From the NCBI RefSeq assembly GCF_003352085.1, contig NZ_CP025804.1, positions 1 through 64,000 on the forward strand: 64,000 nucleotides of DNA, read 5' to 3'. This document shows, one piece after another, positions 37,488 to 55,384 of this stretch (position 1 is the first letter of the stretch; each line of letters opens with the position of its first letter). Origin of the DNA: Sulfitobacter sp. SK012. Lineage in GTDB: Bacteria; Pseudomonadota; Alphaproteobacteria; Rhodobacterales; Rhodobacteraceae. The position numbers and the translations under genes were made by a program. A model generated the notes under the pieces. That model saw only the letters and a list, made by a program, of their open reading frames with translations. It was not told the origin of the DNA and did no database searches.

Positions 37488-38341
37488 GTGAAATCCCCTG
37501 TGAAGCCAATGCGGAGTTGCGTAAGAAGATACTCGAATTCGCTGAGGTACTGCGGAGCCAAGCCCATACGCTTGGCGATCACGGTCTGGAAGAGCAGGAC
37601 TTTTACCAGTCCGGTCTTTTCCGTGGGACGATCGAACGCCTCCGGGGGCAGTTTTCAGCGTCAATGCGCGAAAAGCGTGAATTCGTAGCGCTGGTCCTGA
37701 ATTATATGACCGATGGTGGTTTTGTAGCGTCTTGGGGGTCCGCGGGAGAGTCCAACCGGCACGACTACGTCGTAACGCTGAATTCAGGCAAAACAGCAGT
37801 GATCGAGCTGAAGGGTTGCTTGGACGGAAACAACACCAACATCTTTGAGCGCCCGCCACACGCTGATGAATTCATCATTTGGAGCGTGTGCAGCAATCCC
37901 GGCGCTGATCCACGCCACAACGTTTGGTCCGGCATTCATACTCGGCTAAGTGCCGAGATGATCGACCGCAACCAGCGTATTGATGGGTTGGTCGTTTGGG
38001 ATTGGATTTGCGGAACCAGCGCACGGCCCTGCCCTAAGCTGATTGGTGCAGAGGGCCGCCTAACCGCTGTAGGGCCTTACCGCCTGCCGCCGCCGTGCAT
38101 CTACCTTTTCCCCGGCACGGTGCCGAGTCCCAGAAACAACCCGAACCCGCGCATTAATACGCTTGAGGACGTTGGGTTGTTGGCGGCAATGCAGGCTTGC
38201 TTTGGTGGGCGTGAAGAAGAGGTCAATCATGTCGGGATCGACGTTGCCCACCGCGAAGCAGAGACGGTGCGCCGGACCACGATCACCCGCGACGGGGCAG
38301 TGCAAAAAATGACAGAACCAACACCAATCCGCCGGTCCTGA
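37484..38341 (+). CDS. Putative type II restriction endonuclease (PD-(D/E)XK-like)
   Basis: A 285-residue protein with no family I recognise. The central region carries Asp94 and, 13 residues later, the segment VIELKG (Glu108, Lys110), the spacing and context of a PD-(D/E)XK nuclease active site; the following GCLDGNNTNIFERPPHADEF and later DGLVVWDWICG fit a restriction-type core. An N-terminal helical part (about 10-75) may contact DNA. It is translationally coupled to the methyltransferase by an ATGA overlap and there is no third gene in the unit. A restriction enzyme paired with the methylase is the natural reading, but it is an inference. Confidence 0.6.
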   Translation: MSEIPCEANAELRKKILEFAEVLRSQAHTLGDHGLEEQDFYQSGLFRGTIERLRGQFSASMREKREFVALVLNYMTDGGFVASWGSAGESNRHDYVVTLNSGKTAVIELKGCLDGNNTNIFERPPHADEFIIWSVCSNPGADPRHNVWSGIHTRLSAEMIDRNQRIDGLVVWDWICGTSARPCPKLIGAEGRLTAVGPYRLPPPCIYLFPGTVPSPRNNPNPRINTLEDVGLLAAMQACFGGREEEVNHVGIDVAHREAETVRRTTITRDGAVQKMTEPTPIRRS

Positions 38342-40088: not shown

Positions 40089-40793
40089 ATGAACGCTCCC
40101 TTAGCTGAGAACAAATACGGCGTGTATTCACTGCCTTCCAAGCTAAATCACCGACCAGCCGTCCGGCTGATCAAGCAAGGTTACGTCTATGAGCCCAAAA
40201 CCATCCGTTTCATGATGGAGAATGCAGGCGATGGCGACATCATCCACGCCGGAACGTTCTTTGGCGATTTCCTGCCGGGTCTTGCTGGTGCGATGTCGCC
40301 GAAGGGAAAAATCTGGGCGTTTGAACCCAATCCAGATTCTTTTGAGCACGCAAAACGCACGATCAAGCTGAACAAACTCAAGAATGTGACAATCCAAAAT
40401 CACGCACTTTCAAATACATCAGGCGAACTGCTTTTTAGAACCCATGATAAAAACGGCCAGCCGATGGGGGGGCACAGCACTGTGGTCCACGAGTTTGGTG
40501 ACGGCATCCAACGAGTTTCTGCTGTCTCTCTTGATGACATGATCCCTGCAAATCGCAAAATCTCGATCCTCCAGTTGGATGTTGAGGGACACGAGCGCGC
40601 GGCCTTGATTGGCGCAGAAAAGATCATCAATCGCTGCAAACCCATCTTGATCCTCGAAGATTTCAAACGTCCGCGATTTATTCGGCTTAACTTTGGTCAT
40701 CTAGGCTACAAGCTGATTGGAAAACTGCATGGAAATCGCATTTTTTCAACTGAACCGGTCGCGTTCTGGAAAGATAACCAGCCTCAGTCCTAA
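40089..40793 (+). CDS. FkbM family methyltransferase
   Basis: A 234-residue SAM-dependent methyltransferase of the FkbM family, whose members O-methylate sugars or similar hydroxyls. SAM-binding pattern DIIHAGTFFGDFLPGLAGAM, then IWAFEPNPDSF (acidic SAM-ribose residue), NVTIQNHALSNTSGEL, SLDDMIPANRKISILQLDVEGHE (typical family signature) follow in order. It is the left edge of the glycan locus and so may methylate a sugar in the product. The ATG at 40089 has a weak ribosome site. It is diverging from ahcY, with 187 bp between them. Confidence 0.85.
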   Translation: MNAPLAENKYGVYSLPSKLNHRPAVRLIKQGYVYEPKTIRFMMENAGDGDIIHAGTFFGDFLPGLAGAMSPKGKIWAFEPNPDSFEHAKRTIKLNKLKNVTIQNHALSNTSGELLFRTHDKNGQPMGGHSTVVHEFGDGIQRVSAVSLDDMIPANRKISILQLDVEGHERAALIGAEKIINRCKPILILEDFKRPRFIRLNFGHLGYKLIGKLHGNRIFSTEPVAFWKDNQPQS

Positions 40794-40956
40794 TCCTTGC
40801 ACCATCGCTGTCATTTCTCTGGAAGCCAGCCAGAGGTTCGGACCAATGCGCCAATAGCCCCGTGCGGCAACAATCGATTTTATATTTTCCTTTCGACGTC
40901 TACAAAGTGTTCTGGAGCATAGCGCTCATTGAATTCGTCAAAAGGGGCTCCCAAAT

Positions 40957-41553
40957 ATGGCCAAACCACCCCGTGCGTGGCAGCGGATGCTTTCGGGTCG
41001 CAGATTAGACCTGCTTGATCCAACTCCTGTGGATATTGAAATCGAAGACATCGCTCACGGCCTTGCCTTTGTGGCGCGCTGGAATGGGCAAACGCGCGGT
41101 GATCATGCTTACAGCGTGGCCGAACACTCACTATTGGTTGAAACTCTATTTGGGCGAATACGCCCAGATGGCCCCGCTAAATGGCGGTTAGCAGCGCTCC
41201 TTCATGATGCCCCGGAATATGTGATTGGCGACATGATTTCACCCGTCAAGGCGGCCGTTGGACCCGGATACGGAGAGCTCGATTTGAGGTTAACAGCTGC
41301 GATCCATATTCGTTTTGGTCTGCCAGCAGCCCTTCCCATTTCAGTTAAAAAGCAGATCAAAAAAGCCGACCGTATCAGCGCTTGGATGGAAGCAACCCAG
41401 ATCGCTGGGTTTTCTGAAACTGAAGCAACCAAACTCTTTGGCAATCCAGATCCCGCCCTGACCCAAGGATTGCAGATCGTACTTAGACCCGCCGCACAAG
41501 CCCGCCACGATTTTACGGAACGCCACGCGGCCCTTCTGGAACAACTGCCATGA
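40957..41553 (+). CDS. HD-domain phosphohydrolase
   Basis: A 198-residue HD-superfamily hydrolase. Metal ligands are in GDHAYSVAEHSLLVETLF, LAALLHDAPEYVIGDMISPVK and, towards the end, KADRISAWMEATQ. It is most like YfbR/5'-deoxynucleotidase-type proteins, but the substrate is unconfirmed. The ATG at 40957 follows AAAGGGGCTCCCAAAT. Its stop overlaps the start of the GNAT gene (ATGA). Probably a housekeeping pair rather than part of the glycan locus. Confidence 0.8.
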   Translation: MAKPPRAWQRMLSGRRLDLLDPTPVDIEIEDIAHGLAFVARWNGQTRGDHAYSVAEHSLLVETLFGRIRPDGPAKWRLAALLHDAPEYVIGDMISPVKAAVGPGYGELDLRLTAAIHIRFGLPAALPISVKKQIKKADRISAWMEATQIAGFSETEATKLFGNPDPALTQGLQIVLRPAAQARHDFTERHAALLEQLP

Positions 41554-42035
41554 TCAATGTACGTCCGGCCATCCCTTTGGACGCCCCATCTATGGCGCGC
41601 CTGTTAAATGAGATCATCCGCATTGGCGGGACAACCGCAATTACGCGACCCGTGACAGGCGAGGATTTAAGCGACTGGATGACCGAAAGTGCAGGGCAAT
41701 CAGCATGGCATGTGGCCCTAGATCAAGACGAAGAAGTCGTTGGATTTCAATGGATCAGCCCCAATGAAGCTCTGCCGCCTGAGGCCATTGATATTGCAAC
41801 CTTTGTGCAAGTTGGCCGCACGGGACTTGGCATCGGATCATCACTTTTTAAGGCAAGTTCCGCTGCGGCCAAAGCGTTAGGTTATGTTTGGATCAATGCA
41901 AATATCCGCGCGGATAACGAAGGTGGTTTGACCTATTACCAAAGTCGCGGATTTCGCGATTACGGCATCATTGAAGGCTACCCCTTGGCAGATGGCACGC
42001 GCGTGGACAAAAGGCTGAAGCGCTACGATATCTAG
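41550..42035 (+). CDS. GNAT family N-acetyltransferase
   Basis: A 161-residue GNAT acetyltransferase of the phosphinothricin-acetyltransferase-like type: INVRPAIPLDAPSMARLLNEI, IDIATFVQVGRTGLGIGSSLF with the acetyl-CoA pyrophosphate loop (GRTGLGIGSSLF), and the ending RGFRDYGIIEGYPL. The acceptor amine is unknown. Translationally coupled to the HD gene. Its stop overlaps the stop of the convergent hypothetical gene (CTAG at 42032-42035). Confidence 0.85.
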   Translation: MINVRPAIPLDAPSMARLLNEIIRIGGTTAITRPVTGEDLSDWMTESAGQSAWHVALDQDEEVVGFQWISPNEALPPEAIDIATFVQVGRTGLGIGSSLFKASSAAAKALGYVWINANIRADNEGGLTYYQSRGFRDYGIIEGYPLADGTRVDKRLKRYDI

Positions 42036-42646
42036 CTGAACTCTGAAATGCTGCGTGGTGTTGCCCGCGCACCTTGGCCTGCAAGAATGACATTCAGCCG
42101 CAAATCCATAAGTGACAAACGCAGCTTTTTGGCAGGTAGGCGAAAAATGAGCGTGTGGTAGGCATCATGCCCGACAAAACCATCGTCACCGCGCAGCGTA
42201 TGCATCAAAGTGCGAACGGTTCTAGATTTGCCTACCACTAACTTCTCTTTAAGCTCCGTATCTTCCTGAGCTCCATCTACTGATGAGCGAATGAAGAGCG
42301 GCACATCGTCTTTGCGATCACATTCTGCATCTGCTGTCAGGACAAGTGTATCACCAGCGCTCAACAACCCTCTGCCGAGGCCAATGTTCAGCGTCAGCCA
42401 GCGCGGCGTCCCCTTTACGGTCACATCCGTATCAACAAGCATTCCCGCTGCGGTTTGTGCGCTCAAAGCAACCTCGGCCTGCTCCGCATCCCAACTGTAG
42501 TAAATTGAGGGCACAATATGAGCGTTATTCTCTACTGCCTCAATCTGCCGTAGGGCGCGCAAGACAGATAAGGTTTGGTCGCTCGATATCTCGATGGGGT
42601 GGGTCACGGGAGAGGTCCTGCCTTGGTCCGACGAATGCCCCTTCAT
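42032..42646 (-). CDS. Hypothetical protein, 204 residues
   Basis: A soluble protein without signal peptide or membrane span, of mixed beta/alpha character. Motif-like parts: IVPSIYYSWDAEQAEV, WLTLNIGLGRGLLSAGDTLVLTA, VRTLMHTLRGDDGFVGHDAY. No family recognised. The beta-rich pattern suggests a carbohydrate-recognition or jelly-roll-like fold, but that is a guess. It is divergent from the fucosyltransferase-like gene (72 bp between starts), and converges with the GNAT gene with a 4-bp overlap of stops, so it probably belongs to the glycan locus. Confidence 0.6.
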   Translation of the reverse strand: MKGHSSDQGRTSPVTHPIEISSDQTLSVLRALRQIEAVENNAHIVPSIYYSWDAEQAEVALSAQTAAGMLVDTDVTVKGTPRWLTLNIGLGRGLLSAGDTLVLTADAECDRKDDVPLFIRSSVDGAQEDTELKEKLVVGKSRTVRTLMHTLRGDDGFVGHDAYHTLIFRLPAKKLRLSLMDLRLNVILAGQGARATPRSISEFS

Positions 42647-42718
42647 GCCTCAGCCCTCGATCCTTGTCGAGACCAGCCCCTTGCCCAATCGGAGCGAATT
42701 GAGGATAGGATTAATCCT

Positions 42719-43603
42719 ATGCCTGTTGCCGCATCATATCTGACTGGTCAGCCCTTGCTGTTCATCGACGCCCAGCACGGGTTGTGCAACCGGCTGCGGG
42801 CGATTGCGTCGGCTGCGGCGATTGCACAAGTCACAGGCCGCGAATTGGTTGTGGTTTGGGTGCCTGATCATCACTGCGCCGGACATCTGTCGGATATCAT
42901 CGACTATCCCGGCCTGGTGATCCATGACGCTCAGGCAGCTCTTGCCGTTCGTGCGCAGACTCCAGTGAGTTATAATTATATGGAGATCGAAGAGGGTGCC
43001 GCCTTTGACGCCCCTATTTTGGCGGAGACGGACGCCGGGAACGACGTCTTTATCCGCGCGGCCTATACTCTCAACAGCCCACATCGCGACTATAAGATCG
43101 AACAAAGTTTTTTGCGCGGGCTGATCCCTAGGCCTCATGTCAGCGATCTGGTGGCTTCGGTCCGGCATCCCAATCAGGTTGCGGCGCATATTCGCATGGG
43201 GACCGGGCCCGGGCACGACCATCTTAGCTACGAAGCACCAGAGAATTGGCCGGCGGAACGCCACGAAGAATTGACGCTTTGGCGCAAAAAAAGCCATGCA
43301 TCACATTTCCTGCAACGGATCGAAGCGCTTGAGCTTGAGGGCAGGGCAGATAGCATTTTTCTCGCTGCTGATCTTTCCCAAACTTATGAAACATTCACGG
43401 AACGCTTTGGAGACCGCCTCGCATATCTGCCTCGCGAGGATTTTGACCGCTCAGCAAGGCAACTGCAATTTGCGCTGGCAGACCTGATTTTGCTATCGGC
43501 AGCGGATCGTTTCTTGGCGTCTAACTGGAGTTCATTTTCCGATATTGCCCAGCGCCTTGCCCCCGCGGACCGGCCGATGGAACAAAGCGGCGTAGATTTC
43601 TAG
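42719..43603 (+). CDS. Fucosyltransferase-like (GT23/GT65-type fold) protein
   Basis: A 294-residue protein with the donor-binding pattern of the alpha-1,6-/O-fucosyltransferase superfamily: DAQHGLCNRLRAIASAAAIA at the start (G-x-NR-x-RA motif), VAAHIRMGTGPGHDH (HxRxG motif), SIFLAADLSQTYETFTERFG and ASNWSSFSDIA near the end. The acceptor is unknown. The frame opens at 42575 but the ATG at 42719 is the likely start; GAGGATAGGATTAATCCT precedes it. Placed in a locus that makes GDP-L-fucose, it is a good candidate for the fucose-transferring enzyme. Confidence 0.7.
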   Translation: MPVAASYLTGQPLLFIDAQHGLCNRLRAIASAAAIAQVTGRELVVVWVPDHHCAGHLSDIIDYPGLVIHDAQAALAVRAQTPVSYNYMEIEEGAAFDAPILAETDAGNDVFIRAAYTLNSPHRDYKIEQSFLRGLIPRPHVSDLVASVRHPNQVAAHIRMGTGPGHDHLSYEAPENWPAERHEELTLWRKKSHASHFLQRIEALELEGRADSIFLAADLSQTYETFTERFGDRLAYLPREDFDRSARQLQFALADLILLSAADRFLASNWSSFSDIAQRLAPADRPMEQSGVDF

Positions 43604-43684
43604 ATGGAGCACTCGCACAGATGACCTTGTCCCGGGTTGTCAGGATGTGCCAAATGGGCAGTACCTGCACTCAAGGATACTCAC

Positions 43685-44080
43685 GTGGCCAAATCACCTG
43701 CAAAAAAATCTGAATTGGAAATTGAACGTGACCTGCTGCGCGAAAGCTTGTTCCAGACACTCGCTGCACTGAAGGAAATGGAATCAGAGATCGGACAAAT
43801 GCGCGCTGATGCAAAGGGCCACACAAAAGCGGTTGCTGATCGGCACATGCTCAAGGCGCTTAATGATCTGCTCCAACAACAGATGAAGACAAAAGATAAG
43901 GCCCATCAAGCGCGCGAAGCCGTTTTGGGCCGTGCCTTGCTGCAAGACGGAGCACGCCTGCGGGAAGCCACGGCCGAAACGGCGCAGCTATCTGCAGAAA
44001 TTGAACGCATCCATGGATCAAAATCATGGAAGCTGACCCAGCCTCTGCGAAGCGTTCGACGCCCCGGCGGCAAGGTTTGA
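43685..44080 (+). CDS. Small coiled-coil protein
   Basis: A 131-residue protein, largely one coiled coil (about 10-120; heptads in LEIERDLLRESLFQTLAALK, EIGQMRADAKGHTKAV), ending in the segment SWKLTQPLRSVRR that is often attached to glycosyltransferases and sulfotransferases of glycan loci. A GTG at 43685 behind AAGGATACTC is chosen; the frame is open from 43637. It is transcribed with the sulfotransferase gene, which starts 10 bp after its stop. Function unknown; it may be an adaptor. Confidence 0.6.
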   Translation: MAKSPAKKSELEIERDLLRESLFQTLAALKEMESEIGQMRADAKGHTKAVADRHMLKALNDLLQQQMKTKDKAHQAREAVLGRALLQDGARLREATAETAQLSAEIERIHGSKSWKLTQPLRSVRRPGGKV

Positions 44081-44090
44081 GGACACCAAC

Positions 44091-44885
44091 ATGAGCTATG
44101 ATGACCTAAAAAAAGCACTGCCTACACAAGAAGCAAATTTTGCACCATGTTATGCTTTCTCGGTTCACAAGAGCGGCAGCACCTTGATGCACTCAATGAT
44201 TGACGCCGTATGCCGCGTCGAAAAAATACCCGCCGTCACATTGCCGGATATTATGTTCAACCTTGGCGAAACAGGGATCGACTGGATGTCTGATCCTGAA
44301 CTGCTTCCGATTTTCCAGAAGCGCTGGCTTTACTATGGCTTTAGGAATTTTCCGAAAATCCTTGAAACGCCCGAGGCAGAAATCGGGACTAAGAAGTTTG
44401 TTCTTCTAGTTCGAGATCCACGTGATTCACTCGTATCTCAGTACTTCTCATATGGCCGAAAAGATGGGAGCCATGCGTCGCCCAAGAAAAACCCCGCTGC
44501 GTATCACAAGAAAATGCAAGAAATCGAAGACAAAGAAATTGACAAATATGTTACGGCAGCGGCCCCACCCTTGCGGCGCAAACTGCTGAAATACAGTGAA
44601 AATCTGAACTTTGAACTTGGAATGCTGAGACGCTATGAGGATATTTACTACGACAAGCAGACATTTCTTTCTGATATCTTTGATCATTTTGGCATCAGAG
44701 CTGACCCGCAGACTATTGCGAGAGTCGCACAGCGACATGATGTTAGACCTGCGCAAGAAGATGACAGCAAACACATCCGCAAAGGTACGCCAGGCGATCA
44801 CCGCGAAAAGCTGCGGCCTGAAACGATTGAGGTACTTAATGATACGTTCCGCGATATCGGTGCGTTCTACGGATACCGGCTTTAG
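44091..44885 (+). CDS. PAPS-dependent sulfotransferase
   Basis: A 264-residue cytosolic sulfotransferase. The 5'-phosphosulfate loop is SVHKSGSTLMHSMID near the start, the 3'-phosphate site is VLLVRDPRDSLVSQYFSY, and the C-terminal HIRKGTPGDHREKL is the second 3'-PAPS site. The donor is PAPS; the acceptor is unknown. Its context in a locus for a fucose-containing glycan suggests a sugar hydroxyl. It is coupled to the small coiled-coil protein (10 bp), and an unrelated second sulfotransferase faces it at 45002. Confidence 0.85.
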   Translation: MSYDDLKKALPTQEANFAPCYAFSVHKSGSTLMHSMIDAVCRVEKIPAVTLPDIMFNLGETGIDWMSDPELLPIFQKRWLYYGFRNFPKILETPEAEIGTKKFVLLVRDPRDSLVSQYFSYGRKDGSHASPKKNPAAYHKKMQEIEDKEIDKYVTAAAPPLRRKLLKYSENLNFELGMLRRYEDIYYDKQTFLSDIFDHFGIRADPQTIARVAQRHDVRPAQEDDSKHIRKGTPGDHREKLRPETIEVLNDTFRDIGAFYGYRL

Positions 44886-45001
44886 GCTGCTCGCACGGTC
44901 GCGACTGCACAGAAAAACTTTGGTATGGGCCTATATCCATCCGGGCTGAGCTTTCCGCAAACTACGACGCTCCGCCGTTGCCGCACTTGGGCTGGCTCGT
45001 T

Positions 45002-45793
45002 CTAGAAAATTGCCTGTTGCCGCAAATAGCTCTGCATTTGCAGCGTATCGTGATCAACGATCTCCGCTATTTTGTCGTTCAGCTCGGGAAACGAAATGCG
45101 GCGTTTCTGGACACGCTCAGCACCTGAGTGCATCTTTGCGAACCCTGCCATCTGGGAAGCGCCCACGTCCAACGAAATCGCCCGATAAAGATCAGCACAG
45201 CGATCGGCAAACGTTTTCTTATCATTCTCAAACAGCCCTTCGTAACTTACCAGATGCAGTTTGAAAGATGGTGCTTGACCCTCGTGCGCCTTGATCCAAG
45301 TGGCAACATTTCTCACAGACTGGCTCCAAACTCGGACCCCCTTTGAAAAGTCGTCTTGCCAACCATCTGCTGCGTTCTGATACCGAGCTTGATAAGATGC
45401 CGCGACATCATGGACGTCACGGATGATGTGGATCACCTGAATATCTTTGTTCGCCCAGTGGGGCGCATTGAAGACTGAGAAATTCCTCCAAAGAGATATC
45501 AACTTGTCCCCAACGACCTGCGCCTGATCCATGTTTTCAATGGCTTGCAAGTTAGCGGCCCCGTTGAAATATGCGGGCTTTTGATCATACGAGGTATAGC
45601 CACAGTCAGTGTCGCGAAAACTCCTCAACCGTTCTGGATCAAACAACCCTGGGCGCAGCTGACTATTGTCCTTATTGAACAACATATTGTATCGCTCTTG
45701 GCCGACAAAAGTTTGAGGGGCCCAATTTAGCAATGTGGTCAGGGCCGTTGTGCCCGAACGCGGGCAGCCCGAAACAAAAAGATACCGTTTCAT
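45002..45793 (-). CDS. Sulfotransferase family protein
   Basis: A 263-residue sulfotransferase, only distantly related to that at 44091. Features: LFVSGCPRSGTTALTTLLNW (5'-PSB), IQVIHIIRDVHDVAASYQARY (3'-PB), and typical helices between. The acceptor is unknown. It lies at the 3' end of the minus-strand unit GT2-GT4-Gmd-like-sulfotransferase; the Gmd-like stop is 28 bp upstream. Having two different sulfotransferases argues that the glycan is sulfated at more than one position. Confidence 0.85.
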   Translation of the reverse strand: MKRYLFVSGCPRSGTTALTTLLNWAPQTFVGQERYNMLFNKDNSQLRPGLFDPERLRSFRDTDCGYTSYDQKPAYFNGAANLQAIENMDQAQVVGDKLISLWRNFSVFNAPHWANKDIQVIHIIRDVHDVAASYQARYQNAADGWQDDFSKGVRVWSQSVRNVATWIKAHEGQAPSFKLHLVSYEGLFENDKKTFADRCADLYRAISLDVGASQMAGFAKMHSGAERVQKRRISFPELNDKIAEIVDHDTLQMQSYLRQQAIF

Positions 45794-45820
45794 TATCCCG
45801 CTTTCATTTGTTTAGCAGGC

Positions 45821-46780
45821 CTACCCACGTTTGGCTTCCGCTTCGCACATCTTGCGCACGACATCTTTCATATGGGTCTTTGCCGTCCAACCCAAAAGAT
45901 CCGCTGCACGCGAAGGATCTGCGCGACTGGTTCGGATATCGCTGGGACGCGAGAACTCCTGAGACAGATCAACATGTTCCTGCCAATCGAGATCGAAATG
46001 CGCAAAAGCCGCGGCCACAAAATCCCGCAAAGCCGTCGTGTGACCCGTGGCAATCAGGTAATCACCCGGCGCGTCCGTCTGCAACATCCGCCACATGGCT
46101 TCGACATACTCTGGGGCCCATCCCCAATCCCGCGCGATATCAAGGTTGCCCAAGGTCAATTTTCCGGTGTCACCGCTTGCAATCCGGTGCGCGCCTGCGA
46201 TGATTTTGCGCGTTACAAAGCGTTGCGGGCGCAAAGGAGATTCGTGGTTAAAAAGAATGCCTGTGTAACATTGCAGCCCATAGGCCTCGCGGTAGTTTGC
46301 TACCAGCCAATGGGCAGAGGCCTTGGCCACCGCATAAGGGCTGCGTGGCTGAAATGGAGTCTTTTCGGTTGCAGCTGTATCGCCGGTATCGCCAAAACAC
46401 TCGCTAGATCCCGCCTGATAGATTTGGACGACCTTACTGCGTAGCCGCGCGACCTCCAGCAGGTTGAGCACCCCTGTCACGATGCTTTCAAGCGTCTCTG
46501 CAGGTTGCTCAAAGGAAAGCCCAACCGAGCTTTGGCCAGAAAGGTTATAAATTTCTTGCGGATCGCTGCGTTCGACTGCCTGAAAGACGCTGCGAAAATC
46601 GTTGGGCGCCATGGACAGCACCTTAACCTTATCGACAATGCCCAGCGCCTGCAGGTTTGACAGGCTCGCCGATTGCGCATCACGGGAGGTACCCCAGACT
46701 TCGTAGCCCTTAGCCAGCAAAAGCTCCGCCAAATAACTGCCGTCTTGTCCACCGATTCCGCAAATCAACGCGCGCTGCAT
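45821..46780 (-). CDS. GDP-mannose 4,6-dehydratase-like protein
   Basis: A 319-residue extended short-chain dehydrogenase related to Gmd. NAD(P) site is [20 protein letters not shown], active-site residues are in GSSECFGD (the family's S/T and E) and YAVAKASAHW (Tyr-x-x-x-Lys), and the Gmd-type segment FNHESPLRPQRFVTRKI is present. It is about 50 residues shorter than the Gmd at 51080 and differs in the signature. It may catalyse the same reaction or a related dehydration (as in RmlB/Tyv-type enzymes). The ATG at 46780 behind GGAGAG is preferred. Stop is 28 bp before the sulfotransferase start, start is 13 bp after the GT4 stop. Confidence 0.75.
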   Translation of the reverse strand: MQRALICGIGGQDGSYLAELLLAKGYEVWGTSRDAQSASLSNLQALGIVDKVKVLSMAPNDFRSVFQAVERSDPQEIYNLSGQSSVGLSFEQPAETLESIVTGVLNLLEVARLRSKVVQIYQAGSSECFGDTGDTAATEKTPFQPRSPYAVAKASAHWLVANYREAYGLQCYTGILFNHESPLRPQRFVTRKIIAGAHRIASGDTGKLTLGNLDIARDWGWAPEYVEAMWRMLQTDAPGDYLIATGHTTALRDFVAAAFAHFDLDWQEHVDLSQEFSRPSDIRTSRADPSRAADLLGWTAKTHMKDVVRKMCEAEAKRG

Positions 46781-46792
46781 CGTGCTCTCCAA

Positions 46793-47947
46793 CTATATGT
46801 GATCGACATCCGCCATTAGGCTCCGCAAACGGGTCCATTCAGCGAAAAACGCCGTCGTAGCCTTGGTGTCGCGCGCTCTGATGGCAACGTCAATCTGCTG
46901 AGCCATTTTATCGGCCATCGGTTGCCACTCAAACTTTGCTGCATGTGCCAGCCCCTTTTCGCGCAAGGTGGCGCGGGTATCTGGGCTCAAGACCCCCTGC
47001 AGTGCCGTGACCATCTCTGGAACGGAGGTGCCGTCGATCAACAGAGCTGCATCTCCCGCGGCTTCAGCTAAGGATCCACGGCTGGTTGTGATGACAGGAC
47101 ACCCAGATGCCATCGCTTCAATCACCGGCATGCCGAAACCTTCGTAAAGGGAAGGATAAACCAACGCTGCAGCACCAGCATAAGCGAGCGACAAGTCATC
47201 ATCGCTTAGCGAAACGCGGCTTGCACGGACGCCATTTGGCAAACTGTCAAGAATGCGCGCCTCAATCTCAGTTTCGCCTCCGACGCAAAAGACATCGAAG
47301 TCAGCGCTCTGCATTTCGCCCAATGCATCAAAGAACAGATCAGAATTCTTATAGGCTTTGTGTTGGACCCTTGAGCCGACAAAAAGGAAATAGGGTCGAT
47401 CAAGGCTGTGCGCTGCGCGAAATGCGTCGACTTGAGTCTGATCGCGCGGGCGAAATGTTTCTACGTCCACGCCGCAGTATTCTACGGCTACCAGAGCATC
47501 TGAAATTTCAGGGTAGAGTTTGATCAAGTCGTTGCGGGTTGAGTTCGAGATGCAAAGATACGACTGCGCAAAGGCGATCGCGATTTCCTTTTCACGCCAA
47601 TCCTTAATACGCATGTCGAAATCAAACAGCTCGGGGATCATATCATAGACCATCAAAGCCATCGGTGTGGACACGGGGGATGTGTAGTAGGTCGACACAA
47701 AAGCGTCCGCGCCCAAGTGGTCACACATCTGTTGCAGCAAAGCGGAATCCGCGGCTGCCTCGGGTGCATGCCAACGTGGAAATGGGATGGTCCGGACGCC
47801 ATCGATTTCCGGGGCATTGCCGCGATCCAGCAGGACCATATCAAAGCGGTTCTGCTGTGCCCAAAGCGTCAACACAGACACCCAAACGCGCGCGATCCCT
47901 GAAGAAGCAAGCTGAAAGAAGACCCCATCAATCATCAACTTTTTCAT
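46793..47947 (-). CDS. Glycosyltransferase family 4 (GT-B fold)
   Basis: A 384-residue GT-B glycosyltransferase of the GT4 type. The C-terminal nucleotide-binding half shows PYFLFVGSRVQHKAYKN, VYPSLYEGFGMPVIEAMASG (the EX7E motif, E-GFGMPVIE) and CPVITTSRGSLAEAAGDAAL. The N-terminal acceptor half is unremarkable. Donor and acceptor unknown. Its ATG overlaps the GT2 stop (ATGA), so both are translated from one message. Confidence 0.9.
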   Translation of the reverse strand: MKKLMIDGVFFQLASSGIARVWVSVLTLWAQQNRFDMVLLDRGNAPEIDGVRTIPFPRWHAPEAAADSALLQQMCDHLGADAFVSTYYTSPVSTPMALMVYDMIPELFDFDMRIKDWREKEIAIAFAQSYLCISNSTRNDLIKLYPEISDALVAVEYCGVDVETFRPRDQTQVDAFRAAHSLDRPYFLFVGSRVQHKAYKNSDLFFDALGEMQSADFDVFCVGGETEIEARILDSLPNGVRASRVSLSDDDLSLAYAGAAALVYPSLYEGFGMPVIEAMASGCPVITTSRGSLAEAAGDAALLIDGTSVPEMVTALQGVLSPDTRATLREKGLAHAAKFEWQPMADKMAQQIDVAIRARDTKATTAFFAEWTRLRSLMADVDHI

Positions 47948-49593
47948 GATCCCGTCCCCATTTCAGGTTTGGCTGCGCGCGCCAAATCGCGCAGCGCCTT
48001 TTGGACAAGTCTACTGCGATCAACCTCGTCCTGCGTTGAAGACTTTGGCAAACCCAATATGTCAGTGGTAAATTCTGGCAGGTCAGCGGTAAACCCTTGG
48101 GCGATCAGCTGCGCAGCGTATTTCTTAAGGATCATCCGCCCTTCTATCAGTCCGCGCGTATCTGCGCGCGTCGAGAGGCCCTTAGGGTTCTGATAATACA
48201 CAACGTGTGGCTCATTCACTTTGAAGAATGACTTGCCCTTAGACAGACAGCGCATCCAGAATTCATAGTCCCCGGCGGATTTGTATGAGGCGTCGAACAA
48301 CCCCATTTCACTATGCAGTGATTTGCGCCACATCGGTGCATTGTGCGGCGAGTTAAAGCGCAGCATGTTATAAGGTGTGATCACCGGCAGATCGCTTTTG
48401 TAGCCAAAGGCTGCGACTTCATCCCAGCTAAGGTTTGGAGCAAAGGAATAGTAAAAATCCTGATAGACCACGTCTGCAAAGGGCGTCGCATCCAACGCAC
48501 CCGCTTGGATTTCAAATGAATCAGCGCGGCGCAGATCATCAAGGTTGGCATTCGTCAAATAGTCACCTTTTGACATCTGAACGCCGAGGTTCCATGCCTC
48601 GTAAATGCCTATGCAGCTGTCCATTCTGCGGTATTGGATATTGGGATGATCCTTGAGGTAACGGGCGATTACCTCACCCTCGTTCTCGGGGGAGTCTGCA
48701 TCGATGATGATCAGCTCTGAATGGCGATCAAAGCAGGTCTGGGTGGTAATGTTATCCATGAACTGTTCAATGAAATCACCGCCACGAAACAGGCTGGTGA
48801 TGGCGCTAACGCGCAGTCCAGAATCTGGATTTATATGATAGGGTGTTGCGGGTTTCAGGGCTGCGCGCGCAGCTGCAAGCGCTTCGGTATCTTTGGCCTG
48901 GGCCGCCCAGTTATCTAGATGAACGATTCGATTTGTCCCCATGATCCAGCTCGACAGGCCATCATGCAGCACCTCAACGCTGTCTTTGGATAGACGTGTG
49001 ATCTCCGCGTTGAAGAAATTGATGACCTGATCAGCTCGGCTCATTTCTCGACCTTGAAGCAGCTCGCGGAAATGTTCGAGCTCACTTGGCAGCCCGCCAC
49101 GGCCTTCGATAATTCGATAGACGAATTGAACAAACTCAGCGTCAGTTTGGTTAGGCGCGACCTTTGCCGTTGTGCGAGACGATTGACTGTCAGCTTTCTT
49201 GTTCAAAGCCAGCAGAAAATGCGGGAACGGCGTGCCGCCTGCGATCTCGTTAGTCCAGCGGTTTAGTTCTTTGGTTTTTGGACGGCGATTTAGAGTAAGC
49301 TCAAATGCCAGCTTGATTGCCTTCTTGGTGCTGGTGATGTGATCCTCGACGGATAGGTCCGGCAATTTGCGCAGCGAGGCTTTGGTGAGTACTTTCGCAG
49401 ATAATGCATCATCCAGGCCATCGGTTGATTTGCCTGCATAAAACGCCAACAAGCGTGCTGTCGGATCAGACAGCGGCACATCCTCCACGGTTTGACCAGC
49501 ATCAAGAGCCTGCTTTAGTGCGGCCCGGTCGTCATCAGATACGCCAGCCACCAACAGATCAAACATATCGCGTTGCGCGGTTCCTACAGTCAT
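47944..49593 (-). CDS. GT2-family glycosyltransferase with N-terminal helical repeats
   Basis: A protein of about 549 residues. The C-terminal half (from about 255) is a GT-A domain: VSAITSLFRGGDFIEQFMDN, IDADSPENEGEVIARYLKDH, YLTNANLDDLRRADSF (the metal-binding DxD type), and ending in a HVVYYQNPKGLSTR loop. The N-terminal half contains two helical segments of the DUF4214 kind, LAFELTLNRRPKTKELNRWT and FVYRIIEGRGGLPSELEHF, usually found on secreted or extracellular proteins. The start is the ATG at 49593 rather than the TTG at 49596. It is the first gene of the minus-strand unit and 169 bp from the divergent gene at 49762. Confidence 0.8.
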   Translation of the reverse strand: MTVGTAQRDMFDLLVAGVSDDDRAALKQALDAGQTVEDVPLSDPTARLLAFYAGKSTDGLDDALSAKVLTKASLRKLPDLSVEDHITSTKKAIKLAFELTLNRRPKTKELNRWTNEIAGGTPFPHFLLALNKKADSQSSRTTAKVAPNQTDAEFVQFVYRIIEGRGGLPSELEHFRELLQGREMSRADQVINFFNAEITRLSKDSVEVLHDGLSSWIMGTNRIVHLDNWAAQAKDTEALAAARAALKPATPYHINPDSGLRVSAITSLFRGGDFIEQFMDNITTQTCFDRHSELIIIDADSPENEGEVIARYLKDHPNIQYRRMDSCIGIYEAWNLGVQMSKGDYLTNANLDDLRRADSFEIQAGALDATPFADVVYQDFYYSFAPNLSWDEVAAFGYKSDLPVITPYNMLRFNSPHNAPMWRKSLHSEMGLFDASYKSAGDYEFWMRCLSKGKSFFKVNEPHVVYYQNPKGLSTRADTRGLIEGRMILKKYAAQLIAQGFTADLPEFTTDILGLPKSSTQDEVDRSRLVQKALRDLARAAKPEMGTGS

Positions 49594-49761
49594 CAACCAA
49601 AGCTCCGTTTCGCGCGAGGGTGCAAGGCCGTCGCTCTACCACGTGCAAAACACCCATGGCAACTGTAGCCCAACCCTTGCCGCGCTGGACAAGGTAGGAT
49701 GCGCGCATTAATCATCATCCCCCGGACGTTGCACATAAAATGCCGAAGGGGAAAGGCCCTG

Positions 49762-51021
49762 ATGAAACCTTTGGACAGCACCCCCAGACGTGGCCATGGC
49801 GACACAACGTTGCGCTGCGTGGCAGTTCCCGTCGTGGCCAGCGATATCGGGCCAGTCCTAGCACAGTTGTTTGCGCTTTGGTCTGATGAGCGTTTTGCGC
49901 CAGTGGTGGATGCACGAACGCATCGACCGCATCTGATGATTGTCGCAAACGCGGCAAATGAAGATCAGCTGGCGTTGGCTGAGGCGCTGTTTCGCGATCA
50001 TCCAAAGCTTGCCAATGCATTTTCGGGTTTCAGTGCACTCAGTGCTGATCTAGCTGGTGATTTCGACCGCTATGAACGCAAGCCCGGCGCTCGGGAGGGC
50101 GCATATGGTGCCCGTGCAGGTCCAAACTTTCAATTTTTCAAGACGATGGAATTCTCGCAGGAGCGCGGCGGCTTCACCCTTCAAATCGAGGTTGATTGCC
50201 TGCCCGTCTCAGCGGGGTGGGTTGAAGCCACGCAAGATGTTATCGATGACCACACCAGTGCTTGGGTGATCGGTTCAGTTTATGCTGGTATTGGCGAGCT
50301 TAAGAAAAAAACCCAGTCCCATCTTAACGGAAATGCTCTCTACCGTACAGGTGACCCTTTGTTTCAGGCGTTTCTGCGTGAGGTTTGGCAGCCTCGTCTG
50401 ATGAAACAAATTGGGCTCGACTATACCGTGCCATATGATTGCTGGTGGGCGTTAGAGTGTGCGAGGGCCAGCGCGCGCAAGCCAAATGACGCGTGGCATT
50501 TGTTTCAGGCCTACGATCCGTTTTTTCATAGCGATCCATTTGTCGTGAATCTGCTCGTCACAACGGCAGAAGTTGACGACTATTTGGATGTGTTCGACAG
50601 ACATGCAACTTTGGGGCAAGCACCCGTCTTTTTCCATGGTCAAGCGATGAATTCGGTGCGCGCCAGCCTCCTTGAGCACCCAAGCGACGGGATGCCTCAA
50701 GCGATTTCAAGACTGTCCGGAGCCGAAGTAAGTGGTTCCGTATCTGGTACCAAGATTCCGGTAACAGTGGCGAGCGGTCCTGGTTGGTTAGAATCTTTGG
50801 CACGACGCTATGCAGAGGATCCAACGTTAGCAGCATCGCTGCTGCGTGCAGCGGCAGCAGAAATGAATGTTAACCCCAAGAACTTTGGTGCCGGTCCGTT
50901 AGGCGCACTTGACCGCGCGGTCAAACAGCTTGGCCCAGACGATGCAGTCGTTCAGTATTTTCGCAAAACAGAGGCGCGTGTTGTATCGCTTGGGTCGGCA
51001 GAAGGCTCATCCTCGCATTGA
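49762..51021 (+). CDS. Unassigned protein of the glycan locus (possible glycosyltransferase)
   Basis: A 419-residue soluble protein with no family I recognise. A segment FTLQIEVDCLPVSAGWVEAT contains an acidic pair in a strand-loop context like the DxD of GT-A enzymes, and AVPVVASDIGPVLAQLFALW resembles the first strand and helix of a nucleotide-binding fold; the C-terminal 100 residues are helical. The frame is open to 49699, but GAAAGGCCCTG in front of the ATG at 49762 supports the shorter start. It opens the plus-strand unit with gmd-fcl-manC. A new glycosyltransferase family is plausible. Confidence 0.55.
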   Translation: MKPLDSTPRRGHGDTTLRCVAVPVVASDIGPVLAQLFALWSDERFAPVVDARTHRPHLMIVANAANEDQLALAEALFRDHPKLANAFSGFSALSADLAGDFDRYERKPGAREGAYGARAGPNFQFFKTMEFSQERGGFTLQIEVDCLPVSAGWVEATQDVIDDHTSAWVIGSVYAGIGELKKKTQSHLNGNALYRTGDPLFQAFLREVWQPRLMKQIGLDYTVPYDCWWALECARASARKPNDAWHLFQAYDPFFHSDPFVVNLLVTTAEVDDYLDVFDRHATLGQAPVFFHGQAMNSVRASLLEHPSDGMPQAISRLSGAEVSGSVSGTKIPVTVASGPGWLESLARRYAEDPTLAASLLRAAAAEMNVNPKNFGAGPLGALDRAVKQLGPDDAVVQYFRKTEARVVSLGSAEGSSSH

Positions 51022-51079
51022 TAAATCCGCACCAATATGAAAAGCATCACGAAACCGTTGCAGCAATGGATCCGCAGGC

Positions 51080-52195
51080 ATGAAAAAAGCACTTATTACC
51101 GGCGTCACAGGGCAGGATGGCTCTTATTTGGCAGAGTTTCTGTTGGCCAAAGGGTATGAGGTCCACGGGATCAAACGGCGGGCATCGCTGTTCAACACTC
51201 AGCGGATTGACCACATCTATCAGGATCCGCACGTCAACAACGCGCATTTCAAGCTGCATTACGGTGATCTGACTGATACGTCGAACCTGACACGTATTCT
51301 TAGCGAAGTGCAGCCAGACGAGGTCTATAACCTGGGTGCGCAAAGCCATGTTGCTGTGAGCTTTGAAGCTCCGGAATATACTGCGGATGTCGATGGCATT
51401 GGGACATTGCGCCTGCTTGAAGCGATCCGGTTCCTTGACATGGAGAAGACGACGCGCTTCTATCAGGCCTCCACGTCCGAGCTTTACGGTCTTGTTCAAG
51501 AAACGCCGCAGACCGAAACTACGCCGTTCCACCCGCGCAGCCCCTATGCTGTGGCGAAAATGTACGCCTATTGGATCACTGTAAACTACCGTGAAGCCTA
51601 CGGAATGTATGCCTGCAATGGCATCTTGTTTAACCACGAGAGCCCCCGGCGCGGTGAGACTTTTGTGACCCGCAAGATTACGCGCGGCCTGTGTAATATT
51701 GGGCAAGGCCTCGAAAAGTGTCTCTATATGGGCAACATCGATGCCTTACGCGATTGGGGTCACGCCAAAGACTATGTACGGATGCAGTGGATGATGCTGC
51801 AGCAAGATACTCCTGAAGATTTTGTCATCGCGACCGGAAAGCAGTATTCGGTGCGCGAGTTCATCACTTGGTCGGCTGCTGAATTAGGTCTTGAGTTGGA
51901 ATTTAACGGCACCGGCGTGGACGAGACAGCAACCGTCGCCAAGATCACCGGCGACAACGCGCCAGCCCTGAAGGTCGGCGACGTGGTGCTGAAAATTGAC
52001 CCAAATTATTTCCGCCCAGCTGAAGTCGAAACGCTGTTGGGCGATCCGACAAAAGCCAAGGAAAAGCTGGGCTGGGTCCCAGAAATCACCACGCAAGAGA
52101 TGTGCACCGAGATGGTCGCATCCGATCTCAAAACTGCCAAGCGTCACGCCTTGCTCAAAGAGCATGGGTTTGATTTGCCCGTTAGCGTCGAATAG
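51080..52195 (+). CDS. gmd: GDP-mannose 4,6-dehydratase
   Basis: Gmd converts GDP-D-mannose to GDP-4-keto-6-deoxy-D-mannose, the first step to GDP-L-fucose. The 371-residue protein has the NADP site [20 protein letters not shown], the catalytic ASTSELYG (Thr/Ser and Glu), [10 protein letters not shown] (Tyr, Lys), [20 protein letters not shown] and [16 protein letters not shown], all as in standard Gmd. The ATG is 59 bp after the preceding gene; fcl follows 16 bp later. Normal length. Confidence 0.96.
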
Positions 52196-52210
52196 CGAGA
52201 AAGGTCAGCC

Positions 52211-53188
52211 ATGACCAAAATCTACATCGCAGGGCATCGCGGCATGGTAGGCACCGCCATCAAGCGCAGGCTGGAAACGCGCCGCGCAGACGGCGAAGCG
52301 CTTGAATTGATCACAGCCACCCACGCAGAATTGGACCTGACCGATCAGGTTCAGGTGCGGGATTTTATGAACGCAAATAAGCCAGATATTGTCATTCTGG
52401 CCGCCGCAAAGGTGGGCGGCATTCACGCAAACAACACCTACCCTGCTGATTTCATTTATGAAAATTTGATGATTCAGTCCAACGTGATACATCAAGCGCA
52501 CAGCGCCGGGGTTCAGCGTCTGTTACAACTGGGCTCAAGCTGTATCTATCCCAAGGGCGCGTCTCAGCCGATGCGCGAAGACGCGTTATTAACTGGCACG
52601 TTGGAACCCACGAACGAGCCTTACGCGGTTGCAAAAATCGCGGGGATCAAGCTTTGTGAAAGCTATAACCGTCAACATGGAACGGACTATCGTTCTGTGA
52701 TGCCCACCAATCTTTATGGGCCTGGCGACAACTTCCACCCTGAAAACAGCCATGTTCTTCCTGCGTTGATGCGCCGCTTCCATGAAGCTGAGGCCAGTGG
52801 TGCAGAAGAGGTTATAATCTGGGGTTCAGGCACCCCGCGCCGGGAATTCCTTCACGTGGACGACATGGCGGAAGCGTCATTGTTTGTGCTGGACCTCGAC
52901 AGAGCAACCTATGATGCAAACACCGAGCCGATGCTCAGCCACATTAATGTCGGCTCTGGCACGGATATTTCAATCCTTGAGCTGGCAAAAATGGTTGCAA
53001 AGGTTACGGGCTACACCGGGACCATCACCACAGACCCCAGCAAGCCAGATGGCACATTGCGTAAACTCATGGACGTGTCGCGCCTTGCAAATATGGGCTG
53101 GCGCGCGCGCATCGATCTTCAGGACGGCATCCGAGAGACCTATGCTTGGTTCAACGAACAGTCGGAAAATACGCTTCGGGCGAAATAA
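52211..53188 (+). CDS. fcl: GDP-L-fucose synthase
   Basis: Fcl (WcaG) epimerises and reduces GDP-4-keto-6-deoxy-D-mannose to GDP-L-fucose. The 325-residue short-chain dehydrogenase begins [20 protein letters not shown], has the catalytic [15 protein letters not shown] (Ser, Cys), [17 protein letters not shown] (Tyr-x-x-x-Lys) and [20 protein letters not shown] with the histidine used in epimerisation. It follows gmd closely and is transcribed with it. This makes the product of the locus L-fucose-containing. Confidence 0.96.
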
Positions 53189-53333
53189 CGATGCCTCATC
53201 CGCTGCCATAAATACGCTCCAACCTTACCGCATCATGGCCAAGCTTTGCGGTTAGGGATAATACTGGATGTGTCCACGATATTTGGGCAAACCAAGAGAT
53301 AATTCGAACCTCGTACAAAGGGTTGCGCTGACA

Positions 53334-54770
53334 ATGATTGTTCCTGTTCTTCTATGTGGCGGCTCCGGCACACGGCTCTGGCCCTTGTCGCGGAAATCCT
53401 ATCCGAAACAATTTGCCCGGTTGATGGGCGATGAAAGCCTGTTTCAGGCCTCAGCCCGGCGGTTGACCGGAGATGGCTTTGCCGCCCCTCTGATCCTAAC
53501 GGGTGATCCGTTCCGCTTTATCGTGACTGAACAGATGGCGGCGATTGAACAATCCCCGCAGGCGATCCTGATTGAACCAGAGGGCCGCAATACCGCCCCC
53601 GCGGTTCTGGCCGCCGCCCTATGGTTGGCGCGCACAGACCCTGAGGCGTTGATGCTGGTGGCACCGTCCGATCACGTGATTGCACAAACACCGTTGTTTC
53701 TTGAGGCAGTCCAAGCAGCAGTACCTCGAGCTGAGGCTGGTGATCTGGTGACGTTTGGCATCACGCCAGCGCGTGCCGAAACAGGCTATGGATATCTCGA
53801 ATTGGCCGCTGGAGCGGATGCAAATGCCGTTAGCCCCCAACCACTGGCGCGCTTTGTGGAAAAACCTGACGCCGCGCAGGCGCAAGAAATGCTCGATGCT
53901 GGGAATTTCCTGTGGAACGCGGGAATTTTTCTATTCTCTGCCAAGGCGATCATTGCGGCCTATCAAGCGCATTCACCAAATCTGATGGATGGCGTGCAAG
54001 CATCACTTGATGAATCACAAACTGATTTGGGTTTTACCCGCCTAGCGGCAGAGCCTTGGAGTCAGATCGAAGATATTTCAATCGACTACGCGATTATGGA
54101 AAGGGCCGATAATTTGGCCGTTATGCCATATGCGCACAGCTGGTCCGATCTAGGGGGCTGGGATGCTGTCTGGCGCGAGGCAGGGCCAGATGACAACGGC
54201 AATGTTTGTTCGGACCACGCAACGGCAATTGATTGTGACAACTCGCTGCTCCGGTCAGAGTCTGACAATGTTGAAGTTGTAGGCATCGGGCTGAATGATG
54301 TCGTGGTTGTCGCAACATCTGATGCGGTTCTTGTTGCGCATAAATCTCAAGCCCAGCGCGTCAAAGAAGCGGTGACAGCACTAAAGGCGCGTGGTGTCAC
54401 ACAAGCCGATCAATTTCCGATTGATCACCGCCCTTGGGGTTGGTTTGAAAGCCTCGTGATTGGCGAGCGGTTTCAGGTAAAACGGATTGTCGTACACCCT
54501 GGTGCTTCTCTTTCGCTCCAAAGCCATCACCACCGGTCGGAACATTGGATCGTCGTGCAAGGCACCGCGAGGGTGACCGTGGACAAGGACGTCAAGCTCG
54601 TCTCCGAAAACCAGTCCGTTTATATCCCGCTGGGTGCCGTGCACCGGATGGAAAACCCAGGCAAGGTACCAATGGTATTGATCGAAGTACAGACAGGCAG
54701 CTATCTGGGTGAAGACGACATCATCCGATACGAAGACATCTATGCGCGTGGCCAGGGAGCCAAGGGATAA
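53334..54770 (+). CDS. manC: Mannose-1-phosphate guanylyltransferase / mannose-6-phosphate isomerase
   Basis: ManC makes GDP-mannose, the Gmd substrate, and its C-terminal domain can isomerise fructose-6-phosphate. The 478-residue protein opens with the pyrophosphorylase signature LLCGGSGTRLWPLSRKSYPK, has LIEPEGRNTAPAVLAAAL and EKPDAAQAQEMLDAGNFLWN, and ends with the cupin-type isomerase domain ASLSLQSHHHRSEHWIVVQG. The frame is open from 53268; the ATG at 53334 is the family start. It closes the set manC-gmd-fcl; the RegA gene faces it 3 bp from its stop. Confidence 0.95.
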   Translation: MIVPVLLCGGSGTRLWPLSRKSYPKQFARLMGDESLFQASARRLTGDGFAAPLILTGDPFRFIVTEQMAAIEQSPQAILIEPEGRNTAPAVLAAALWLARTDPEALMLVAPSDHVIAQTPLFLEAVQAAVPRAEAGDLVTFGITPARAETGYGYLELAAGADANAVSPQPLARFVEKPDAAQAQEMLDAGNFLWNAGIFLFSAKAIIAAYQAHSPNLMDGVQASLDESQTDLGFTRLAAEPWSQIEDISIDYAIMERADNLAVMPYAHSWSDLGGWDAVWREAGPDDNGNVCSDHATAIDCDNSLLRSESDNVEVVGIGLNDVVVVATSDAVLVAHKSQAQRVKEAVTALKARGVTQADQFPIDHRPWGWFESLVIGERFQVKRIVVHPGASLSLQSHHHRSEHWIVVQGTARVTVDKDVKLVSENQSVYIPLGAVHRMENPGKVPMVLIEVQTGSYLGEDDIIRYEDIYARGQGAKG

Positions 54771-54773
54771 ACC

Positions 54774-55319
54774 TTATTTTGGCGAGCGTTTCGCCAAAAT
54801 CCGTTGAAGCGTCCGCCGGTGCATATTAAGCCGCCGGGCTGTCTCGGACACGTTACGATCACACAACTCATAGACACGCTGAATATGCTCCCAGCGCACT
54901 CTGTCAGCGCTCATTGGATTTTCTGGCGGTGGCGGCAAATCATCACCGGTAGTAAGCAGCGCATTGGTAATGTCATTCGCATCGGCCGGTTTGGACAGAT
55001 AATCTGTCGCTCCGATTTTCACCGCTGCGACAGCTGTCGCGATTGCACCATATCCAGTCAGCACGACAACCCTCGCATCGGGCCGCTTTTCACGCAGGAT
55101 TTCAACAACATCTAGGCCATTTCCATCACCCAACCGTAGGTCAACAACCGCATAGGCTGGTGGGCGTGCCGTCGCAATAGCACTACCCGCGGCAACACAA
55201 TCAGCGGTTTCCACTTCAAACCCACGTTTTTCCATCGCCTTGGCAAGCCGGCGAAGAAATGGTTCATCATCATCAAGTAAGAGCAGGCTCTTGTCCGGAC
55301 CGATATCTAGCTGTGTCAT
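54774..55319 (-). CDS. regA: Photosynthetic/redox response regulator RegA (PrrA/ActR)
   Basis: The DNA-binding response regulator of the RegB/RegA redox system, controlling respiration, nitrogen and CO2 fixation and photosynthesis genes in Rhodobacterales. The receiver domain has the acidic pocket LLDDDEPF and phospho-acceptor Asp60 (VVDLRLGDGNGLDVV), and Lys in YLSKPADAND; the C-terminal Fis-type helix-turn-helix is NVSETARRLNMHRRTLQRIL. The GTG at 55328 is possible, but AAGGGG ahead of the ATG at 55319 favours the 181-residue form. It ends 3 bp from manC, on the other strand, and follows senC. Confidence 0.95.
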   Translation of the reverse strand: MTQLDIGPDKSLLLLDDDEPFLRRLAKAMEKRGFEVETADCVAAGSAIATARPPAYAVVDLRLGDGNGLDVVEILREKRPDARVVVLTGYGAIATAVAAVKIGATDYLSKPADANDITNALLTTGDDLPPPPENPMSADRVRWEHIQRVYELCDRNVSETARRLNMHRRTLQRILAKRSPK

Positions 55320-55384
55320 GTTGCTCACCCCTTACGGCTGTTCTGTGAGAATATGTAGCGCAACTGGGGAGGCGTCAAACCCTG

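Follow-up and report, generated by a model that had tools for sequence, protein, structure and literature searches.

A locus of Sulfitobacter sp. SK012 raises the question of how the glycan that its enzymes are predicted to build would leave the cell. The locus lies in the first 64,000 nucleotides of contig NZ_CP025804.1 (the window), where the housekeeping genes ahcY (38510-39901, minus strand) and regA (54774-55328, minus strand) bracket positions 40089-54770. It encodes enzymes of GDP-L-fucose synthesis, a predicted fucosyltransferase (FucT, gene fucT), further glycosyltransferases (GTs), two sulfotransferases and an FkbM-family methyltransferase. An initial annotation had described it as a locus for a sulfated, L-fucose-containing glycan without export genes and had argued from the missing genes that the acceptor may be a surface protein or a lipid. 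The absence itself was confirmed, as no flippase, polymerase or ATP-binding cassette (ABC) exporter family scored above cut-off among the 20 proteins scanned across 38510-60624. The argument for such an acceptor was not supported, because exporter genes are present elsewhere in the genome. We consider it probable that the island, made up of fkbM and 42032-54770, serves as an accessory module that adds fucose and sulfate to a surface polysaccharide. This polysaccharide would be put together in the cytoplasm and leave the cell through a Kps-type ABC system encoded in trans; in this lineage the module, which sits between a GNAT gene and regA, would have become separated from its exporter.

The ABC-dependent capsule pathway requires neither a flippase nor a Wzy polymerase. 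The lack of both in the island is thereby accounted for, and a protein acceptor is not needed as an explanation. As outlined in excerpts of PMC11041684, the chain of such capsules is assembled intracellularly on a lipid anchor, 3-deoxy-D-manno-oct-2-ulosonic acid (Kdo) is added by KpsS and KpsC, and export proceeds through KpsMT, KpsE and KpsD. The cytoplasmic assembly proposed in the initial annotation fits this scheme.

Export genes in the genome and their linkage to fucT

The genes kpsT, kpsE and kpsM were found at C1:4025758-4028686 (about 4.03 Mb), on the same chromosome as the island and about 0.8 Mb from it if the chromosome is circular. PF01061 and PF00005 matched above cut-off, giving a transporter pair together with KpsE. 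A second group at C1:1632360-1636965 (about 1.63 Mb) comprises kpsC, a gene for an outer-membrane export protein and kpsS, with PF05159 and PF02563 above cut-off at C1:1632513-1636710. Glycosyltransferases, glf and RTX proteins are encoded in the 20 kb preceding kpsTEM. Six Sulfotransfer_3 genes were listed in the genome, including one in the island, two at 31-34 kb from kpsT and one 3 kb from kpsS; this list is incomplete, as it misses sulfotransferase 1 of the island, and one of the six is below cut-off.

The connection between the island and this exporter was sought in relatives. Among 118 genomes, fucT occurred in four, the own genome included, and all four also had this KpsM, the best non-self matches being those of G020 (73%) and G047 (57%). 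In S. undariae (G017, L042) a single contig carries the coiled-coil protein, the 204-residue protein and fucT and, some 11 kb further along, gmd, which opens the series gmd, sulfotransferase-like gene, fcl, manC, GT2, kpsM-kpsE-kpsT, sulfotransferase-like gene, GT4. The fucose genes of this strain are thus adjacent to the exporter. G047 likewise has both on one contig, with kpsM-E-T-sulfotransferase-GT4 in one block and manC-fcl-gmd-fucT about 39 kb from kpsM.

A wider sample was taken from the 79 fucT loci found in species genomes. The neighbourhood counts given for these loci are lower bounds, because the open reading frame (ORF) caller misses some genes. Even fucT was picked up in no more than 70 of the 79, and a KpsM within the L055 stretch was missed and located by the later KpsM search. 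That search started from 39 of the 79 loci, mostly of isolates, and covered 38 named fucT genomes at a threshold of E 1e-10; KpsM was present in 31. At least 17 of the 38 carry it on the same contig as fucT, at distances of 5.3-54.6 kb, and 14 carry it within 20 kb, where random placement of a single KpsM in 4.3 Mb would lead one to expect 0.35. The number 17 derives from 20 places, one on a contig too short for use, whose 19 stretches contained fucT in 16 cases, plus S. undariae; KpsM-bearing genomes outside this same-contig test were counted as unlinked. It is this linkage in relatives, together with the presence of the genes themselves, that argues for export of the island product by the Kps system. 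The initial annotation had named an exporter clearly tied to the locus as the finding that would overturn its view. With the kps genes elsewhere in the genome and their linkage to fucT in relatives such an exporter was largely found, although its tie to the island in the own genome is drawn from the relatives.

Several observations weigh against this reading. The Kps proteins of the own genome score low on the dedicated models: KpsE matched TIGR01010 with E 3.3e-62, yet at 210.7 bits against a cut-off of 437.5, KpsM reached 88.2 bits on NF050053 against a cut-off of 300, KpsS was below the NF050054 cut-off and the KpsC protein had no NCBIfam match. Glycan biosynthesis genes of the island are not adjacent to the exporter in the own genome or in G020, where the two are on different contigs, and the own genome has three Wzx-like genes (C1:1.60, 2.47 and 3.14 Mb). 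KpsM of this kind is common (55/118 genomes). The 38 fucT genomes are related and hence not independent in the comparison with random placement; seven of them, including Vibrio, Limnohabitans and three Ruegeria, had no KpsM at the threshold used, and three Alteromonas matches were remote (26-27% identity). In S. undariae, the two sulfotransferase-like genes do not reach the Pfam cut-offs. Sulfotransferases were present in 35 of the 79 loci, their density was not sharply peaked beside fucT (densities of 23, 64, 35, 49 and 26 per Mb over bins of 2 kb), and in 21 loci no GDP-fucose gene and no sulfotransferase was seen. Hot spots for polysaccharide genes on plasmids could explain why fucT and kpsM occur together, even if the two serve different products. 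Finally, a kpsMTE-GT4-lectin/GT block without fucT was seen in G029 and G058, two of the six exporter stretches taken from fucT-negative genomes. The exporter therefore does not imply fucose, and from these gene contents fucosylation appears to be an optional addition to it; lineages other than this one may use the FucT family in a different route.

If the island feeds the Kps system, the following order of events can be proposed. ManC would form GDP-mannose, from which Gmd and Fcl would produce GDP-L-fucose, an established pathway whose enzymes were recognized by family. FucT, with its NodZ-type fold and conserved residues, would then transfer L-fucose to the growing glycan. The GT2, GT4 and GT-A enzymes would add the neighbouring sugars, the two sulfotransferases would sulfate the glycan, and FkbM would perhaps methylate it. 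The chain, which KpsS and KpsC would build on a glycolipid of the Kdo type, would be exported by KpsMTE and the outer-membrane export protein.

Three other destinations were weighed against this one. The module might feed a Wzx/Wzy-type exopolysaccharide or O-antigen from another polysaccharide locus, for which the three Wzx-like genes are available and, at 2.47 Mb, a locus with its own manC, a sulfotransferase and what looks from its sequence like a sugar transferase of the priming type. When the three own-genome Wzx proteins were used as seeds, they had no match among the ORFs called at the 79 fucT loci (flippases unlike these three might escape such a search), whereas KpsM shares the contig with fucT as described, and we regard this route as improbable. 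A glycan assembled in the cytoplasm might instead decorate a protein, RTX or another surface protein, and have no glycan exporter of its own. The absence of an exporter from the island and the fold that FucT has in common with the protein O-fucosyltransferases POFUT1/2 would agree with this. RTX proteins, considered as possible acceptors, are encoded near kpsTEM and, by motif count, in just 6 of the 79 fucT loci. The relatives point to an exporter elsewhere on the chromosome, so that a locus lacking one is weak evidence for protein glycosylation, and a decorated protein was judged decidedly unlikely.

Equally, the product might be a decoration of lipopolysaccharide or of another lipid-linked oligosaccharide, unrelated to either export route. 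A short decoration needs no polymerase, and the four glycosyltransferases of the island (FucT, GT4, GT2 and GT-A) would be enough to make an oligosaccharide. The protein scan of the island and its flanks detected no lipid-core or ligase family, and the KpsM linkage in relatives also speaks against this explanation, which we hold to be very unlikely.

The surroundings of kpsTEM contain further large proteins. A run of RTX-repeat proteins, recognized by similarity and repeats, precedes the exporter genes (L118 16411 to L119 7035, C1:4006410-4017034). A 1297-residue protein with galectin-like, Galactosyl_T and GT2-type domains is encoded at L119 10421-14314 (C1:4020420-4024313), and a 2056-residue protein of G047 (L131 4182-10352) also has a double-GT2 part. 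Just beyond the window end, a 303-residue protein with a weak Capsule_synth match is encoded (L140 8047-8958, C1:68046-68957); a similar protein is found at the corresponding position of G020.

The predicted fucosyltransferase family and the other island enzymes

The fucosyltransferase-like call of the initial annotation had rested on a sub-threshold match to Pfam O-FucT (E 0.0065), and no Pfam or NCBIfam model matched FucT above cut-off. Structure comparison now supports it: the overall fold is that of a GT-B fucosyltransferase of the NodZ/FUT1/FUT8/POFUT type. The most likely start is ATG 42719 rather than TTG 42575, and the database protein has 294 residues. In 29 sequences, G22, N25, R160, D219, S272 and S273 were invariant and F274 was conserved in at least 90% (R160 and N25 counted from base 42716). 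Excerpts of PMC3180450 give Gly42-Asn43, Arg240, Asp309 and Ser355-Thr356-Phe357 as the GDP-fucose-binding residues of CePOFUT1; the FucT residues were paired with these sites by motif order alone. Fold and conserved residues suggest that FucT is a fucosyltransferase. The possibility that it is a NodZ orthologue was rejected: identity to NodZ was 14-18% over structural alignments, and the profile search gave NodZ just E 0.078 over 32 residues.

The family comprises 291 database proteins, and in 41 of the 79 loci a GT2 domain is fused to FucT. The homologue of Roseovarius aquimarinus is labelled 'O-fucosyltransferase family protein' by one database source, so automatic annotation already points toward this function. 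MptE-like proteins (PF01973) near fucT were considered as possible flagellin glycosyltransferases of the Maf kind; they were encoded in only 4 of the 79 loci, and the match in the own genome was below cut-off, so this idea was set aside. A common gene order was seen in L087 (Alteromonas), L071 (Vibrio) and L090 (Lamellibrachia symbiont), consisting of a coiled-coil/methyltransferase-like gene, a sulfotransferase, a GT2-FucT fusion, a pyruvyl-transferase-like gene and gmd. The sulfotransferase of L071 is in two pieces.

All the genes named in the initial annotation were recovered by Pfam or NCBIfam matches (manC, gmd, fcl, GT4, GT2, the Gmd-like gene, the sulfotransferases and fkbM; Table 1). 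ManC, Gmd and Fcl each exceeded the curated NCBIfam cut-off and together cover the steps that lead from mannose-6-phosphate to GDP-L-fucose except that of phosphomannomutase, an enzyme for which no search was made. The second Gmd-like protein scored 313.5 bits on TIGR01472, below the cut-off of 415 for the gmd equivalog; its closest solved structures are the GDP-mannose dehydratases 2z1m and 1rpn. Both sulfotransferases exceeded the Pfam cut-offs (PF00685 and PF13469) for domains of carbohydrate sulfotransferases dependent on 3'-phosphoadenosine 5'-phosphosulfate. A sequence search of the PDB gave no match up to E 0.1 for sulfotransferase 1 and one weak match (E 0.019) for sulfotransferase 2. 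The GDP-L-fucose genes, the fucosyltransferase of NodZ-type fold and the two sulfotransferases together uphold the earlier view of the product, which from the gene content would be a sulfated glycan containing L-fucose.

The 419-residue protein matched no Pfam or NCBIfam family, and the best hit of a PDB profile search had E 0.21. Its structure model (predicted local distance difference test score 87.8) gave xyloside xylosyltransferase 1 as top Foldseek match, with E 1.6e-7 and template modelling scores of 0.41 (query length) and 0.55 (target length), and the protein thus resembles GT-A enzymes such as this one. It had 30 database matches, itself included, when scored among the 8000 candidates sharing most words, and occurred in 2 of the 118 genomes (G000 and G020, both of which carry the island). 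The 204-residue protein also lacks a Pfam family. Homologues were found in 20 of the 79 fucT loci, 19 of them no more than 4 kb from fucT (alignment A4), and this conservation indicates that it is encoded by a real gene that travels with fucT. The C-terminal part of the coiled-coil protein has homologues in 32 of the 79 loci, 27 of them within the same 4 kb.

Layout of the island and its insertion site

The extent of the locus required revision. Twenty regA loci were compared, the window itself included. In all 19 loci from relatives an HD gene and a GNAT gene adjoin regA with only short spacers, and fkbM is absent between ahcY and HD in all five of these loci whose stretch reaches ahcY. The conservation of HD and GNAT beside regA and the lack of fkbM in relatives point to two insertions in the window, fkbM alone and the main island between the GNAT gene and regA. 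The HD and GNAT genes, previously counted within the locus, were rejected as members since they are conserved beside regA without the island and are host flanking genes; fkbM and the main island remain. The relative G020 carries the same island at the same site, including FkbM (60% identity), sulfotransferase 1 (66%) and the GT4 enzyme (73%); sulfotransferase 2 has no match there.

Table 1. Genes of the island and host genes between its two parts (positions in the window)
Feature	Positions	Strand	Evidence
FkbM-family methyltransferase	40089-40793	+	PF05050 1.6e-18; TIGR01444 1.3e-23
HD-domain protein and GNAT protein, host genes	40957-42035	+	next to regA in 19/19 relatives' loci
204-residue protein	42032-42646	-	conserved near fucT
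Predicted fucosyltransferase (FucT), NodZ/FUT1/FUT8/POFUT fold, 294 residues	42719-43603	+	structure comparison
Coiled-coil protein, C-terminal SKSW-type tail	43637-44080	+	homologous tails at fucT loci
Sulfotransferase 1	44091-44885	+	PF00685 1.2e-8
Sulfotransferase 2, different family	45002-45793	-	PF13469 2.1e-13
Second Gmd-like GDP-sugar 4,6-dehydratase	45821-46792	-	PF16363 1.6e-104
GT4 glycosyltransferase	46793-47947	-	PF13692 2.2e-20
DUF4214 + GT2 glycosyltransferase	47944-49596	-	PF13946 (DUF4214) 5.6e-8, then PF00535 2.6e-12
Putative GT-A-fold glycosyltransferase, 419 residues	49762-51021	+	structure model, Foldseek match
gmd, GDP-mannose 4,6-dehydratase	51080-52195	+	TIGR01472 579.6 bits, cut-off 415
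fcl, GDP-L-fucose synthase	52211-53188	+	NF047922 515 bits, cut-off 500
manC, mannose-1-phosphate guanylyltransferase / mannose-6-phosphate isomerase	53268-54770	+	TIGR01479 587.8 bits, cut-off 372.95

Comparison with known systems

Sulfated capsules exported by ABC systems are known from Vibrio sp. KMM 8419 (PMC11641403) and Cobetia marina KMM 1449 (PMC11766843). As far as excerpts of these reports go, the likeness lies in the scattering of sulfotransferase, nucleotide-sugar and ABC export genes across several regions, the named export genes being kpsDME, kpsT and kpsS for Vibrio and kpsSC for Cobetia. In the same excerpts the two clusters encode synthesis of dTDP-rhamnose with UDP-glucose or GDP-mannose, whereas L-fucose is predicted here, and the Sulfitobacter island is far from its exporter. 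The term 'fucosyltransferase' is absent from the Vibrio text, and no word starting with 'fucos' occurs in the Cobetia text. Genes for fucosylation and sulfation of rhizobial Nod factors (nolK-noeL-nodZ-noeK, noeJ, noeI and noeE, according to excerpts of PMC4881576) resemble the island in combining GDP-fucose genes, a fucosyltransferase of NodZ fold, a sulfotransferase and a methyltransferase. No nodulation gene was found among the island proteins, and FucT and NodZ differ widely in sequence as described above. By this comparison the island may work in part like the Nod-factor system and is not a member of it. With the group 2 capsule system of Escherichia coli (KpsMTEDCS; excerpts of PMC11041684) the genome shares KpsM-, KpsT-, KpsE-, KpsS- and KpsC-like proteins and an outer-membrane export protein. 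The Sulfitobacter genes differ in lying at two chromosomal places, with the fucose module at a third, and in scores that fall short of the NCBIfam cut-offs for Kps proteins.

Rhamnose biofilm plasmids of roseobacters were reportedly described by Michael in 2016. The fucT contigs of S. undariae and G047 resemble them in having rml-like genes and a replication partition pair, which is ParA-type by Pfam and ParB-type below cut-off. The island of the window differs in its place on a contig of 4.8 Mb and in its lack of rml-like genes.

As far as searched, the kind of system is already known, and the FucT family, its GT2 fusion and the split of island from exporter are the features of a new variant. 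No description of the FucT family in these bacteria was found among the matches listed in open-licence literature, as judged by titles and the starts of abstracts, and fucosyltransferase combined with Sulfitobacter matched only work on coastal viruses. The analysis describes a large family that no Pfam or NCBIfam model matches above cut-off, and it leads to a prediction of the bacteria that form surface glycans with fucose and sulfate. Bacterial polysaccharides that carry sulfate attract interest in connection with marine biofilms and as fucoidan-like materials.

A more general proposal, possible but doubtful, is that a mobile 'sulfofucose' cassette is widespread in marine Alpha- and Gammaproteobacteria and plugs into different surface-glycan systems. 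Such a cassette would consist of a fucosyltransferase of NodZ fold (often fused to GT2), a sulfotransferase, a coiled-coil or methyltransferase-like partner and GDP-fucose genes. If so, bacteria would have in it an equivalent of sulfated-fucose polymers, and the island would represent a copy detached from its exporter. Against it, a GDP-fucose gene and a sulfotransferase occurred together in only 23 of the 79 loci, a lower bound since many stretches end at contig ends, and the 21 loci with neither count in the same direction.

Outside the island, a C5 cytosine DNA methylase (36315-37487, plus strand) is followed with a 4-base overlap by a 285-residue protein without a Pfam family (37484-38341, plus strand); the two are possibly a restriction-modification pair. 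At 24207-25496 (minus strand) a transposase-like protein with HTH_38 and integrase core domains is encoded, which is presumably IS30-like.

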